Origin: Halobacterium sp. DL1
Lineage (GTDB): Archaea > Halobacteriota > Halobacteria > Halobacteriales > Halobacteriaceae
Length of the DNA: 64,000 nt
Direction: 5' to 3'
Assembly (NCBI GenBank): GCA_000230955.3
Contig: CP007060.1
Location: forward strand, 248,001 to 312,000
Below, one piece after another: positions 34,726-56,227 of the stretch. The notes beneath the pieces are model-generated. The model was not told the DNA's origin and searched no databases. It worked only from the letters and a program-made list of their open reading frames with translations. The position numbers and the translations under genes are program-made. The first letter of the stretch is position 1, and each line of letters begins with the position of its first letter.

Positions 34726-34798
34726 AGTGAGGGAGGAGTGCTTTTGGTGGAGCTTTTGCCGAGGGCTGGCTTCGCCAGCCCACAGCGCAAAAGGTCCG
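34726..34798 (-). repeat. Stop-abutting repeat, copy A (after engB)
   Basis: Read along the minus strand, the repeat begins CGGACCTTTTGCGCTG at the first base after the engB TAG stop, then has an 8-bp hairpin GGGCTGGC/GCCAGCCC with loop GAAG, GGCAAAAG pairing back to CTTTTGC, and CCACCAAAAGCACTCCTC. Nearly identical to copy B at 46759-46831. Confidence 0.75.
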
Positions 34799-35416
34799 CT
34801 AGAAGAACTGCTTCAGGTCGTCGCGCTTCGCGGCCTCGAGGTGGGTGCGGACGGCCTCGTTGAGTGCCTGGATGTTGCCGGTCTTGGCGGTGATGGGGGC
34901 GATGGTGTCCTGCCACTGTTTCCACGGCGGGAGCAGGCCGAGGCGGTCTGCGATGTCGTCCAGCCGTTCGTCGCGGTCGTCGACCTTGTCCATCTTGTTG
35001 ACGGCGACGACGGGCGCGATGCCGAGGTCCTCGAGCAGGTAGAACAGTTCGACGACGTGTGGAATCTCGTCGTCGCCGGAGTGGCGGTCGATGATGTCGA
35101 CGGCGGCCTTCCCGTCGAGGACGAGCACGCCGACCAGGATGTCGTCGGCGTTGGCCTCGAGGTAGTGGACGATGTCTGTCTTGATCTGCTCGCGGTGGTC
35201 GTCCTCGACGCCGGACATGAACCCGAAGCCGGGCAGGTCGGTGACCATGAAGTCCTCGCTCGCCCAGTCGAAGTGGTTGGGCTGGCGGGTGACGCCGGGT
35301 TTCTGTCCCGTCGGTACCTTGTGCCCCGTAATCTCGCGCATCAGCGTCGACTTCCCGACGTTCGACCGGCCGACGAGCACGACCTCGTCGCTCCGGTCCG
35401 GTCGGTTCTCGAACAT
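34799..35416 (-). CDS. engB: Ribosome-biogenesis GTPase EngB
   Basis: A 205-aa TRAFAC-class GTPase. G1 is GRSNVGKST (about 16-24), G3 DLPGFGF (about 60-66), G4 NKMD (about 140-143) and G5 ITAKTG. EngB/YihA acts late in large ribosomal subunit assembly. The stop is followed immediately by the 73-bp repeat. No other gene is within an operon distance on this strand. Confidence 0.92.
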
Positions 35417-37739: not shown

Positions 37740-38723
37740 CTACTCCTCGAACGGCAGTTTGGGTTCGAAGCCGACAGCCTCGATTGCGGCTTCGAGCGCT
37801 TCTTCGACGCCCTCGCCGGTCTCCACGCTCATGTAGCAGTCCGCCTCCACCTCGTCGGAGAGGTCGGTCTTGTTGCAGACCGTCACGAGTGGGACGTCCG
37901 GGAACTGCGCGGCGACCTCCGCGCGGAGCGCGCGCTGGTCCTCGAGGGGGTAGCCACACGTCCCGCTCGGGTCGAGGAAGAAGAGGATGACGTCACCAGC
38001 GTGCGCGAGCGCGGAGACGGCCTGGTTCTCGATCTGGTTGCGCTCGTCGGCCGGGCGGTCGAGCAGCCCCGGCGTGTCGACGATCTGCCAGCGCACGCGC
38101 TCGTGCTCGAAGTGCCCGACGCGGATGCCCTTCGTCGTGAACGGGTACTCCGCGGTCTCGATCTTCGCACTCGACACCGCGTTGACGAACGACGACTTCC
38201 CGACGTTCGGGTAGCCCGCGACGACGACGGTCGGGTCGTCGGGTTCGATGGTGGGCAGGTTCTTCAGCGCGTCCCGCGCCTGCCCGACCGCCTCGAGGTC
38301 GTCGGCAACCTGGTTCATCACCGACCCCATCCGCGCGAACGCCTGCTTGCGAATCTTCCGGGCGCCGTCCGTGTCGTGGGGGAGTTTCCCCATGTACTCC
38401 CGGCCGAGGTCGTGGGTCTTCGAGGCCGCCCACGATATCTCCGAGAGGTGCTGTCGGAGCGCGTCGATACCCTCGTCGCTGTCGTACTCCTTGCGCAGGA
38501 TGGCGTCGGCGAGTTCGTAGTAGAACGGGTCCACCTGGTCGAAGTCCGGCCACTCCGTCACCACGTTGTGGAGGTTGTCCCCGAGGATGTTCGAGGACGT
38601 CTGCAGCATCGACTCCTGGGCCTCCCGGCCCCCCTTCGCCCGCCCCGAGCGCGCCGCCCGCGAGAACGCCTTGTCGAGGAGTTCCTCCGACGTGGGCGTC
38701 GTCGGCAGGTTCTCGAAAATCAT
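37740..38723 (-). CDS. NOG1-family GTPase
   Basis: A 327-aa GTPase. A helical N-terminal domain (about 1-160) precedes the G domain: G1 GYPNVGKSS (about 169-177), G2 TTKGI, G3 DTPGLLD (about 215-221), G4 NKTD (about 284-287). Archaeal NOG1 proteins are linked to large-subunit ribosome assembly. The minus strand before the ATG contains CCTTTTACG, a plausible TATA region. It sits beside engB-type functions, but about 2.5 kb away. Confidence 0.9.
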   Translation of the reverse strand: MIFENLPTTPTSEELLDKAFSRAARSGRAKGGREAQESMLQTSSNILGDNLHNVVTEWPDFDQVDPFYYELADAILRKEYDSDEGIDALRQHLSEISWAASKTHDLGREYMGKLPHDTDGARKIRKQAFARMGSVMNQVADDLEAVGQARDALKNLPTIEPDDPTVVVAGYPNVGKSSFVNAVSSAKIETAEYPFTTKGIRVGHFEHERVRWQIVDTPGLLDRPADERNQIENQAVSALAHAGDVILFFLDPSGTCGYPLEDQRALRAEVAAQFPDVPLVTVCNKTDLSDEVEADCYMSVETGEGVEEALEAAIEAVGFEPKLPFEE

Positions 38724-38821
38724 GCTCGCGAGTAGGCAGGCGACACGTAAAAGGCCACGTATCGGCGGCTGTGGGGCTTCTTCAGGTTCACTCGAGGATG
38801 TGGTTCTGGAGAGCGCTCTTC

Positions 38822-38918
38822 GAAAGCCCCGAGGCTACGAACTCGGGGGACTCGCTGTGCTCCTCGCTCCGCTGCGGTGCTTGCGTCGTCCGCCGTCGTT
38901 CGTAGCCTCGCCCCTTTC
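38822..38918. repeat. Variable-stem, conserved-loop element, copy 1
   Basis: Outer arms GAAAG (38822-38826) and CTTTC (38914-38918) enclose a perfect 12-bp stem GAGGCTACGAAC (38831-38842) / GTTCGTAGCCTC (38898-38909) with a 55-nt loop containing GACTCGCT (38849-38856) and GTGCTTGCGTCGTC (38877-38890). Copy 2 at 56128-56227 has the same arms and loop but an unrelated stem. It occupies the divergent gap between NOG1 and the DUF5518 protein. Confidence 0.75.
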
Positions 38919-39015
38919 AGTCCACCCGCTACCGGGTGTCGAACAGGGACTGACGGACTGAACGCCCAGTCGGTCGTACACGACGCTTTTGGCCATAGAG
39001 TCCCTCTACTCGGAT

Positions 39016-46236: not shown

Positions 46237-46758
46237 ATGCGCGTAGACATCGTCCCCGTCGGCGACGTGCCCGCGCAGGTCAAGCGCGAGGCCTCCTCGA
46301 GCCTCCGCTCGGTCTACGACTGCGACGTGGTCGTCGCCAGCGAACAAGAGGTTCCCCAGGGGGCGTACGACGACGCGCGAAGCCAGTACCGCGCCGCGGA
46401 ACTCATCGACCTCGCGACCCGCGTCAGCGACGGCGACAAGACCCTCGCCATCACCCCCGAGGACCTCTTCTACCGCCGCCGCAACTACGTCTTCGGCCTC
46501 GCGTACCTCGACGGCCGGGGCTGCGTCGTCTCCACCTACCGGCTCCAGACGTCGAGTGACGGCGGCTTCTCCGAGCGCCCCGCTGCCGACGTCTTCGACG
46601 ACCGCGTCCGCAAGGAGGTCGTCCACGAACTCGGCCACACGCTCGGCCTCGAACACTGCGACAACAACCGCTGCGCGATGAACTTCTCCCCCACCGTCCG
46701 GGAGGTCGACCGCAAGGAGGAGAACCTCTGCGGGAGCTGCCAAAGAACCGTTTTCTGA
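46237..46758 (+). CDS. amzA: Archaemetzincin
   Basis: A 173-aa zinc protease. The core motif HELGHTLGLEHC (His130, Glu131, His134, His140) is followed by a second metal site with Cys141, Cys146, Cys165 and Cys168 (CDNNRCAM...CGSC), the hallmark of archaemetzincins. Substrates are unknown. The mRNA is probably leaderless. The 73-bp repeat starts at the base after the stop codon. Confidence 0.92.
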   Translation: MRVDIVPVGDVPAQVKREASSSLRSVYDCDVVVASEQEVPQGAYDDARSQYRAAELIDLATRVSDGDKTLAITPEDLFYRRRNYVFGLAYLDGRGCVVSTYRLQTSSDGGFSERPAADVFDDRVRKEVVHELGHTLGLEHCDNNRCAMNFSPTVREVDRKEENLCGSCQRTVF

Positions 46759-46831
46759 CGGACCTTTTGCGCTGCGGGCTGGCTTCGCCAGCCCTCGGCA
46801 AAACCTCCACCAAAAGCACTCCTCGCTCACT
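46759..46831 (+). repeat. Stop-abutting repeat, copy B (after amzA)
   Basis: Begins CGGACCTTTTGCGCTG immediately after the amzA TGA stop, then hairpin GGGCTGGC/GCCAGCCC with loop TTCG, GGCAAAA, CCACCAAAAGCACTCCTC. It matches copy A (34798 down to 34726) with about eight differences in roughly 80 bases; four of these are the loop, which is the reverse complement of the other. The remainder of the 265-bp gap to the next gene shows only AGCG/CGCT-rich sequence. Confidence 0.75.
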
Positions 46832-47023
46832 TCGCTAGCGCTCCGTTCGCTCGTCGGCCTCCGCTCGTTCGCGTCGCTCACTCGCGGAGTGAATCGCGGC
46901 ACTCGGGTTCTTCGAACCGCTCGCGCCGCGAATGCTACAGTTTGCTGGTTAGTTCTGCTGTAGCTTCTCGGCGCACCCATCCGAGAACGGCCGGAATCGC
47001 CGGCCAGCCGGGCGTCCGCCCGG

Positions 47024-54554: not shown

Positions 54555-56066
54555 ATGGCGACAGAGGCTACGACGGAAGCCCCGGAAGCGTACGACGCCC
54601 TCCTCGACCACTACGAGCAGCTGTCGAACGTCAACAGCGCGAACATGCTGCTCTCCTGGGACCAGGAGGTCATGATGCCCGAGGGCGGGACGCCCGCCCG
54701 CTCCCAGCAGAAGTCCGCGCTCTCCTCGCTCTCCCACGACCTGCTCACCGAGGACAAGGTCGGCGATTGGCTCGACGAACTCGCCGAGGCCGACCTGACG
54801 GACGAGCAGGATGCCGTGGTGCGCGAGATTCGACGCGAGTACGAGCGCGCCGACCGCGTCCCGAACGACCTGGTGGCCGAGATATCCGAGAAGACCTCCG
54901 AGGCGCTCCCGAAGTGGAAGGAAGCGAAAGAGGAAGACGACTTCTCCATCTTCGCGCCCATCCTCGAGGAACTCATCGAGTTGAAGAAGGAGTACGCGGC
55001 GCACATCGACGACGAGGCCGACCCCTACGAGGTGCTGTTCGCGGACTACGAGCCGTACCTCGACCTCGAGACCGCCGAACGGGTACTCGAACGTCTCCGC
55101 GAGGAACTCGTCCCGCTAATCGCGGACATCCGCGAGAGCGACGTCGAACTCGCCGACCCCTTCGAGGGCGACTTCGACGTGGACACCCAGGAGGAACTCG
55201 CCCGGGACACCCTCGACACGCTCGGATACGACTGGGAGCACGGCCGCCTCGACACCGCCCCGCACCCGTTCTCGACGGGGAACCAGTTCGACGCCCGGGT
55301 CACCACGCGGTTCGCCGAAGACGACCCGCTCGGCGCGCTCACCTCGACCATCCACGAGTTCGGCCACGCGCGCTACACGCTCGGCCTCCCCCGTGAGCAG
55401 TACGGCAACCCGCTCGGCGAGTCCCGAGACCTCACCGTCCACGAGTCCCAGAGCCGCCTCTGGGAGAACCACGTCGGGCGCTCCCGCGTCTTCTGGGAGA
55501 AGTTCCTCCCCGCGATGAAGGAGCGATTCCCGCAGGTCGAGGACGCTACCCCCGAGGACGCCTACGAGGCCGCCAACGAGGTGTACGAGGACAACCTCAT
55601 CCGGGTCGAGGCGGACGAACTCACCTACCACATGCACATCATCGTCCGCTTCGAGATCGAGCGCGAACTCATCGAGGGCGACCTCGACGTCGCGGACGTC
55701 CCCGAGCGCTGGAACGACAAGTACGAGGAGTACCTCGGCATCCGACCCGAGACCGACGCGGAGGGCTGCCTCCAGGACATCCACTGGAGCCACGGCTCCT
55801 TCGGTTACTTCCCGACGTACTCGCTGGGCAGCGTGCTCGCCGCCCAGATTTACGACGCTCTCGAAGCCGACGTGGGCGACGTCGAGGCGAAGGTCCGCGA
55901 AGGCAACTTCGACGTCATCGCGGAGTGGCTCGAAGAGAACGTCCACCAGCACGGCGCCCGCTACACCACGCCCGAACTCGTCGAGGAAGCCACCGGCGAG
56001 GAGTACAACGCCGACCACTTCGTCGACTACGTCACCGAGAAGTACGCGGAACTGTACGACCTGTAA
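54555..56066 (+). CDS. M32 carboxypeptidase, copy 1
   Basis: A 503-aa metallocarboxypeptidase of the Taq/Pfu type. The metal site is HEFGHARY (His267, Glu268, His271) and the HESQSRLWENHVGRS motif (about 296-310) provides the third ligand, with [10 protein letters not shown]-like [18 protein letters not shown] in the C-terminal part. It removes C-terminal residues broadly. Paralogous to the gene at 58069, sharing most of its length. The start is ATG 54555. Confidence 0.95.
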   Translation: MATEATTEAPEAYDALLDHYEQLSNVNSANMLLSWDQEVMMPEGGTPARSQQKSALSSLSHDLLTEDKVGDWLDELAEADLTDEQDAVVREIRREYERADRVPNDLVAEISEKTSEALPKWKEAKEEDDFSIFAPILEELIELKKEYAAHIDDEADPYEVLFADYEPYLDLETAERVLERLREELVPLIADIRESDVELADPFEGDFDVDTQEELARDTLDTLGYDWEHGRLDTAPHPFSTGNQFDARVTTRFAEDDPLGALTSTIHEFGHARYTLGLPREQYGNPLGESRDLTVHESQSRLWENHVGRSRVFWEKFLPAMKERFPQVEDATPEDAYEAANEVYEDNLIRVEADELTYHMHIIVRFEIERELIEGDLDVADVPERWNDKYEEYLGIRPETDAEGCLQDIHWSHGSFGYFPTYSLGSVLAAQIYDALEADVGDVEAKVREGNFDVIAEWLEENVHQHGARYTTPELVEEATGEEYNADHFVDYVTEKYAELYDL

Positions 56067-56127
56067 GTCGGCTCGTTCGCGTTCGTCTTTCTGACTGCTG
56101 ATTCGACGGTAGTGTTCGACGACAGCA

Positions 56128-56227
56128 GAAAGCCCTCGCGCAGTTGCGGTCCCGCGACTCGCTTTGCGCGCTCACTCCGTTCGCGTGCTTGCGTCGTCGG
56201 GGTTCCCGCAACTGCGCTCGCCCTTTC
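56128..56227. repeat. Variable-stem, conserved-loop element, copy 2
   Basis: Outer arms GAAAG (56128-56132) / CTTTC (56223-56227); perfect 12-bp stem GCGCAGTTGCGG (56138-56149) / CCGCAACTGCGC (56206-56217); 56-nt loop with GACTCGCT (56156-56163) and GTGCTTGCGTCGTC (56185-56198), both identical to copy 1 at 38822-38918 while the stem is unrelated. In the gap between M32 copy 1 and the GNAT gene. Confidence 0.75.

Follow-up and report, generated by a model that had tools for sequence, protein, structure and literature searches.

The window, the whole stretch of 64,000 nucleotides from Halobacterium sp. DL1 analysed here, contains two copies of a hairpin repeat and none further. The GAAAG box of copy 1 starts 99 nt from the start codon of a divergent gene for a GTP-binding protein (37740-38723, minus strand), and that of copy 2 lies 62 nt past the stop codon of a carboxypeptidase-like gene (54555-56066). 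The parts of the two copies are as follows.

38724-38821, no strand: left spacer of copy 1; its spacing is conserved across the family, its sequence is not
38822-38918, plus strand: hairpin repeat copy 1, a single copy (covariance model E 1e-20, copy 1 being in the model's seed); a second, degraded half may adjoin it on the right side
38822-38826, plus strand: copy 1 outer box GAAAG, partner of CTTTC at 38914-38918
38830-38842, plus strand: copy 1 left stem arm CGAGGCTACGAAC
38849-38856, plus strand: copy 1 conserved box GACTCGCT, 5′ side of the inner helix
38877-38890, plus strand: copy 1 conserved box GTGCTTGCGTCGTC, 3′ side of the inner helix
38898-38910, plus strand: copy 1 right stem arm GTTCGTAGCCTCG, fully complementary to the left arm
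38914-38927, plus strand: copy 1 outer box CTTTC with conserved 3′ extension AGTCCACCC
56067-56127, no strand: left spacer of copy 2
56128-56227, plus strand: hairpin repeat copy 2, a single copy (covariance model E 3e-11, copy 2 being outside the seed)
56128-56132 and 56223-56227, plus strand: copy 2 outer boxes GAAAG and CTTTC
56138-56149, plus strand: copy 2 left stem arm GCGCAGTTGCGG
56156-56163, plus strand: copy 2 conserved box GACTCGCT
56185-56198, plus strand: copy 2 conserved box GTGCTTGCGTCGTC
56206-56217, plus strand: copy 2 right stem arm CCGCAACTGCGC

An earlier note on this DNA had described two hairpins with common outer and loop boxes, each with a stem perfectly complementary to its own partner. 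Both points were borne out, the arms measuring 13 bp in copy 1 (including a closing C-G pair) and 12 bp in copy 2, all perfectly paired. An extra helix inside the stem also covaries (GGGGAC/GTCCGCC versus CCCGCGAC/GTCGGGG). Against dinucleotide shuffles, the folding z-scores were -5.4 (plus strand) and -4.7 (minus strand) for copy 1 and -3.8 on both strands for copy 2; on either strand both copies folded better than 200 of 200 shuffles. Elsewhere in the window, chance ORFs at 34727-34800 and 46750-46980 translate to a common phrase, EECFWWRFCRGLA..SAKGP, suggesting another dispersed repeat.

A hairpin repeat family of haloarchaea

Searching the window's genome with GTGCTTGCGTCGTC and reading the loci yielded about 20 clear copies. 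A covariance model seeded with nine copies from this genome, copy 2 not among them, recovered copy 2 at E = 3e-11 genome-wide and gave 42 matches at E<=1. Of these, 40 reached E<=1.4e-4, which puts the genome at around 40 copies. Their layout is GAAAG-CCC-[12-13 bp variable stem]-inner helix-loop-[stem′]-CCC-CTTTC-AGTCC, where the inner helix consists of GAC..CGC / GCG..GTC plus a variable 2-3 bp, and the mean column identity of the copies is 75%. The outer pair covaries across the family (GAAAG/CTTTC, CAAAG/CTTTG, GGAAG/CTTCC).

In a sample of relatives, matches were found in 39 of 59 genomes. Congeners carry anything from 0 to 47 copies, and 29-63 are present in some genomes of other families (up to 91 in one genome with laxer filters). 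A scan of named genomes returned, among the matches listed, Halorubrum, Halonotius, Haloarcula, Halorussus, Halosimplex, Natrinema, Haloferax, Halobacterium and others. The possibility raised in the earlier note, that just two copies exist or that further ones have decayed stems, is thus contradicted by the copy number, the spread and the retained pairing described below. Its statement that no named haloarchaeal family fits agrees with our searches: no Rfam family matched the hairpin repeat, and an exact-sequence search for the conserved box found no match in the open papers searched. The hairpins are a real, widespread, non-coding repeat family of haloarchaea with maintained pairing, and one that is apparently unnamed so far, as judged from open papers.

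Placement and turnover

No copy overlapped a gene predicted by our home-made codon-usage gene caller. Twenty of the 39 chromosomal copies form 10 doublets, all ten convergent (E> <E) with a linker of 22-85 bp; 0.004 convergent doublets are expected by chance. The unit is a hairpin of around 100 bp, often present as an inverted pair with a linker of about 25 bp, and some 55 bp flank each hairpin on the outer side. Measured from the left end, 48 of 55 copies have a divergent start codon at 80-119 nt, where random placement would give 7.5, and 21 of 26 follow a stop codon by 41-62 nt, against 2.6 expected; both ranges were chosen after inspection of the data. Typical distances are ~99 nt and ~54 nt, respectively. 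Conserved sequence in the left spacer is limited to roughly ACACC(T/C)(C/A) beside the hairpin. In one genus, in genome G056, the copies of a dispersed unit of ~340 bp share 84-91% identity; this unit includes the spacer, has the hairpin ~75 bp in from its left end and carries a second conserved block downstream of the hairpin. The spacer being part of this dispersed unit, there is a simple reason for the constant distance.

Other features recur near the hairpins. A loop-less mini-palindrome, C(G/A)AAGCCCCAGCCGCTCGGCTGTACG, is found ~55 nt upstream of many copies in G029 and G056 (L376-L415), at a near-constant distance. In many haloarchaeal genera, plasmids and secondary replicons have a copy upstream of a gene for an RPA/OB-fold DNA-binding protein (L023 1448-1551; L163, L165-L167, L175-L177, L180), and there one subfamily's stem, GGCCGCTCGAC, is well conserved. 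Over 3014 bases, the L023 stretch (G000:C2:110207-113220) is identical to plasmid CP002989.1 of halophilic archaeon DL31, which suggests that genera exchanged DNA recently.

Comparison with a congener, G010, revealed about 20 shared sites, identified by flanks at ~90% identity. Both window sites are occupied in G010 with different stems, and no element is present there in the other congeners examined. Other sites are occupied in the window's genome and empty in G010 (L048, L060 and L056 versus L314, L315 and L321), and at a further G010 site (L320) the outer boxes alone remain, stem and loop having gone. Moreover, doublets have been flipped in place (L045/L319, L043/L138, L050/L140), one loop is inverted together with its stem relative to the outer boxes (L147) and two hybrids have non-complementary arms (L155, L323). 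No clean target-site duplication or exact end could be discerned, as the available species are so divergent that their intergenic DNA is saturated. A second small repeat, a double hairpin of ~58-80 bp (GGTTCGAAAG..CTTTCGTGATGACGAGAGAGC..GCTCTCTCGAACCA), has repeatedly inserted inside the loop or arms (L014 1380-1551, L019 1378-1550, L022 1578-1749, L316), resembling the reported entry of SMR-A repeats into PATE palindromes.

The fixed spacing, with its post hoc ranges, the many orthologous sites kept between two species and the copy kept upstream of the RPA-like gene on plasmids of many genera would all suit a host-functional DNA element, in which a cruciform or hairpin at a fixed distance serves as an insulator, supercoil sink, terminator or protein-binding boundary. 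However, copy number falls to zero in some congeners and reaches 47 in others, neither window site is occupied in the remaining congeners examined, and the spacer carried within the G056 unit could alone account for the constant distance. We hold such a host function to be unlikely.

Pairing of the stems

In alignments fitted to the model's structure, in which related copies are not independent, 94.5% of cells were paired among 82 distinct copies (mostly Halobacteriaceae), with double changes in 23 of 29 pairs and a covariation of 0.554 versus 0.139 in shuffles. The corresponding values for 97 copies from across the order were 93.8%, 27 of 29 pairs and 0.482 versus 0.121. None of 500 shuffles matched the observed value in either set. 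Owing to the fitting and the non-independence of copies, comparison of orthologous loci is the cleaner test of pairing. At 12 loci shared with G010, whose arms were extracted by hand, 105 of 155 stem pairs were unchanged, 36 had changed on both sides and were still Watson-Crick, 11 had changed on one side and 3 had changed on both without pairing. Each left arm was complementary to the orthologous right arm at 70% of positions, as against 96% for its own partner in G010. Pairing rather than sequence is thus retained at orthologous sites. Compensated changes account for 10 of 13 pairs in copy 1 and 7 of 12 in copy 2. The inner-helix type of copy 1 also differs from that of its G010 counterpart, so that the change at this site may reflect a swap for another copy and not a series of single substitutions.

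The earlier note had proposed that stem identity is free while pairing is maintained. The second half stands, since pairing was kept while stem letters changed, both in the two alignments and at the orthologous loci. The first half does not hold fully: discrete stem subfamilies and inner-helix types recur across copies, the inner half of the stem shows a bias towards certain sequences (TCGAC, GAAC, TACGG), and some genera come close to having a single stem, as in Halorubrum records (AGCCGCGAGGAC) and in Halonotius. Decayed copies (L055, L158) retain mismatches. As for the note's other suggestion, an element that would copy local sequence into both arms, the comparisons made here gave no sign of it.

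The kinds of pair bear on whether the fold is one of DNA or RNA. Stem cells comprised 2065 Watson-Crick pairs, 24 G.T, 67 A.C and 118 other mismatches, several of the mismatches being inherited within subfamilies. G.T thus makes up ~1% of stem pairs on the plus strand, compared with 6% G.U in tRNAs of the same DNA, for which the tRNA finder itself disallows A.C. This low frequency argues against an RNA read from the plus strand, and selection on an RNA, as a form of the selected structure envisaged earlier, is unsupported. Read from the minus strand, the mismatch ratio reverses to 67 G.U to 24 A.C, and the pattern is therefore still compatible with a minus-strand RNA or single-stranded DNA. 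A TATA-like box ~28-40 nt before the hairpin is present in 12 of 79 copies in A4 and 3 of 16 in G029, and a motif at that distance was found in 1 of 74 Halobacteriaceae copies. The left spacer was accordingly rejected as a promoter of the hairpin's own, the motif characterising subsets alone and not Halobacteriaceae.

A transcribed hairpin whose RNA fold is selected, be it a cis leader or trailer or a small RNA, would explain the strong covariation in both sets; the TATA-like boxes of some copies would put the transcription start at the hairpin, and the minus-strand mismatch bias would suit RNA better. Set against this are the plus-strand rarity of G.T relative to A.C and to tRNAs at the same loci, the want of a TATA-like motif at the required distance in Halobacteriaceae, the absence of an Rfam match and the fact that copies change orientation in place. 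A structured RNA is, in our judgement, likewise unlikely.

Arm-to-arm identity could also be kept by mutation alone, through template switching or quasipalindrome correction, with no selection for pairing. The nearly exclusive Watson-Crick pairs, with G.T no commoner than A.C, suit such DNA-level conversion between arms, and the loop inversion and hybrids reveal hairpin-related rearrangement. However, the outer and inner boxes are conserved although the flanking intergenic DNA is unalignable between species, and the boxes must therefore be selected or re-copied; the mismatches kept in L055 and L158 also count against it. We regard mutation alone as very unlikely. Still more improbable is that the loop alone is mobile, as a small repeat that entered palindromes already present as targets, with their arms as the variable stems: SMR-A repeats of Haloquadratum (~110 bp) do insert inside near-terminal palindromes (PMC3119063), L320 retains outer boxes alone and the mini-palindromes upstream of some G029 and G056 copies lack a loop, but stems change at orthologous sites while boxes stay, so that the stem is not a fixed prior target, and the outer boxes are conserved jointly with the loop in nearly all copies.

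Relation to known mobile repeats

REPINs are inverted doublets of REP sequences moved by RAYT transposases; Bertels and Rainey described conserved ends, the importance of spacer length and pairing, and common compensatory changes (PMC3116915). The haloarchaeal repeat likewise consists of short non-coding intergenic sequences in inverted doublets, with singlets that look like remnants, and shares the variable spacer with compensatory changes. It differs in that each doublet half is a hairpin of ~100 bp with outer and inner boxes and not a REP of 20-40 bp. Y1 (RAYT) transposases were rejected as the mobiliser: matches to Y1_Tnp (PF01797) showed no association with copy number (Spearman -0.07), and 8 of the 16 genomes with >=20 copies had no PF01797 match.

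PATEs, the palindrome-associated transposable elements of Haloquadratum, are also haloarchaeal, too short to code and equipped with near-terminal palindromes and a variable segment outside the palindrome (PMC3119063). Here too, near-terminal palindromes (in the G056 unit) and a lack of coding capacity were found, no copy lying over a predicted gene, and other small repeats insert inside the palindromes of both. A further PATE trait is the lack of a target duplication; at the hairpin sites, sequence divergence blurs the boundaries. The two are set apart by the published description of PATEs rather than by PATE sequences: PATE palindromes are akin to IS605-type ends, whereas the hairpin repeat is absent from 10 IS605/TnpB loci of two genomes, where the model gave a single match at E 0.23. 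Several TnpB-locus ends read GGAAGCCCC..GGGGAGG, not the hairpin repeat, and as a source these ends were rejected, having the GAAGCCCC start alone in common and a different structure. In this genome, TnpB-type IS ends at L419 1851 and L423 1900 form a palindrome, GGAAGCCCCGGCGTTCACGCCGGGGAGGATGTCACC, which begins much like the element's GAAAGCCCC. SMR-A repeats resemble the family in their size of ~110 bp, inverted ends and tens of copies per genome (PMC3119063). However, identity among SMR-A copies is commonly >95%, and their targets are PATE/IS605 palindromes, whereas the copies described here have the lower column identity given above and varying stems, and are intergenic with no IS605 link at the 10 loci.

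A further parallel lies outside these groups. The attC sites of integrons consist of a single strand that folds, in which boxes are conserved, some positions stay unpaired and certain segments are free in sequence provided they pair. The hairpin repeat also has conserved boxes and stretches that need pairing alone, but its copies are dispersed and no cassette array was seen.

From these comparisons, the hairpin repeat looks like an archaeal counterpart of bacterial REPIN-type mobile hairpin repeats. We think it is probably a non-autonomous hairpin DNA repeat of REPIN- or PATE-like design, partly recognised by its folded shape and moved by a putative enzyme in trans. Such a protein would recognise the folded strand, as a single-stranded hairpin or an extruded cruciform, via the GAAAG/CTTTC ends and the inner boxes, in which case the stem need only pair. 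One-sided mutations may be lost because mispaired copies propagate less well, because the hairpin templates their repair, or for both reasons; recombination or hairpin processing at the inverted repeats could account for flipped pairs, inverted loops and hybrids. For mobility speak the sites occupied in one species and empty in relatives, which could in part be losses, and the dispersal of the ~340-bp unit within G056; the nearly complete restriction of stem pairs to Watson-Crick, unlike tRNA, speaks for a DNA repeat. Against mobility, no mobilising enzyme was found, Y1 transposases not tracking copy number, and the ~20 sites common to two species show Halobacterium copies behaving largely as long-resident elements, which a host function would explain too. 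The tight spacing to start and stop codons is likewise not required of a plain selfish repeat. More speculatively, and with low probability in our view, haloarchaea might carry an undescribed non-Y1 system of recombination or transposition. It would recognise folded hairpin DNA from its shape and end boxes, would move or invert these units at a defined spacing from the starts and stops of genes, and would thereby rewire promoter-upstream regions.

Taken together, these hairpins would constitute an order-wide, apparently unnamed archaeal repeat family with direct evidence of pairing retention at orthologous sites. The family offers a ready test for structure-based DNA recognition and points toward a putative mobilising enzyme. 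Moreover, since the distances to start and stop codons are fixed, a role at gene boundaries could be tested in genetic hosts.
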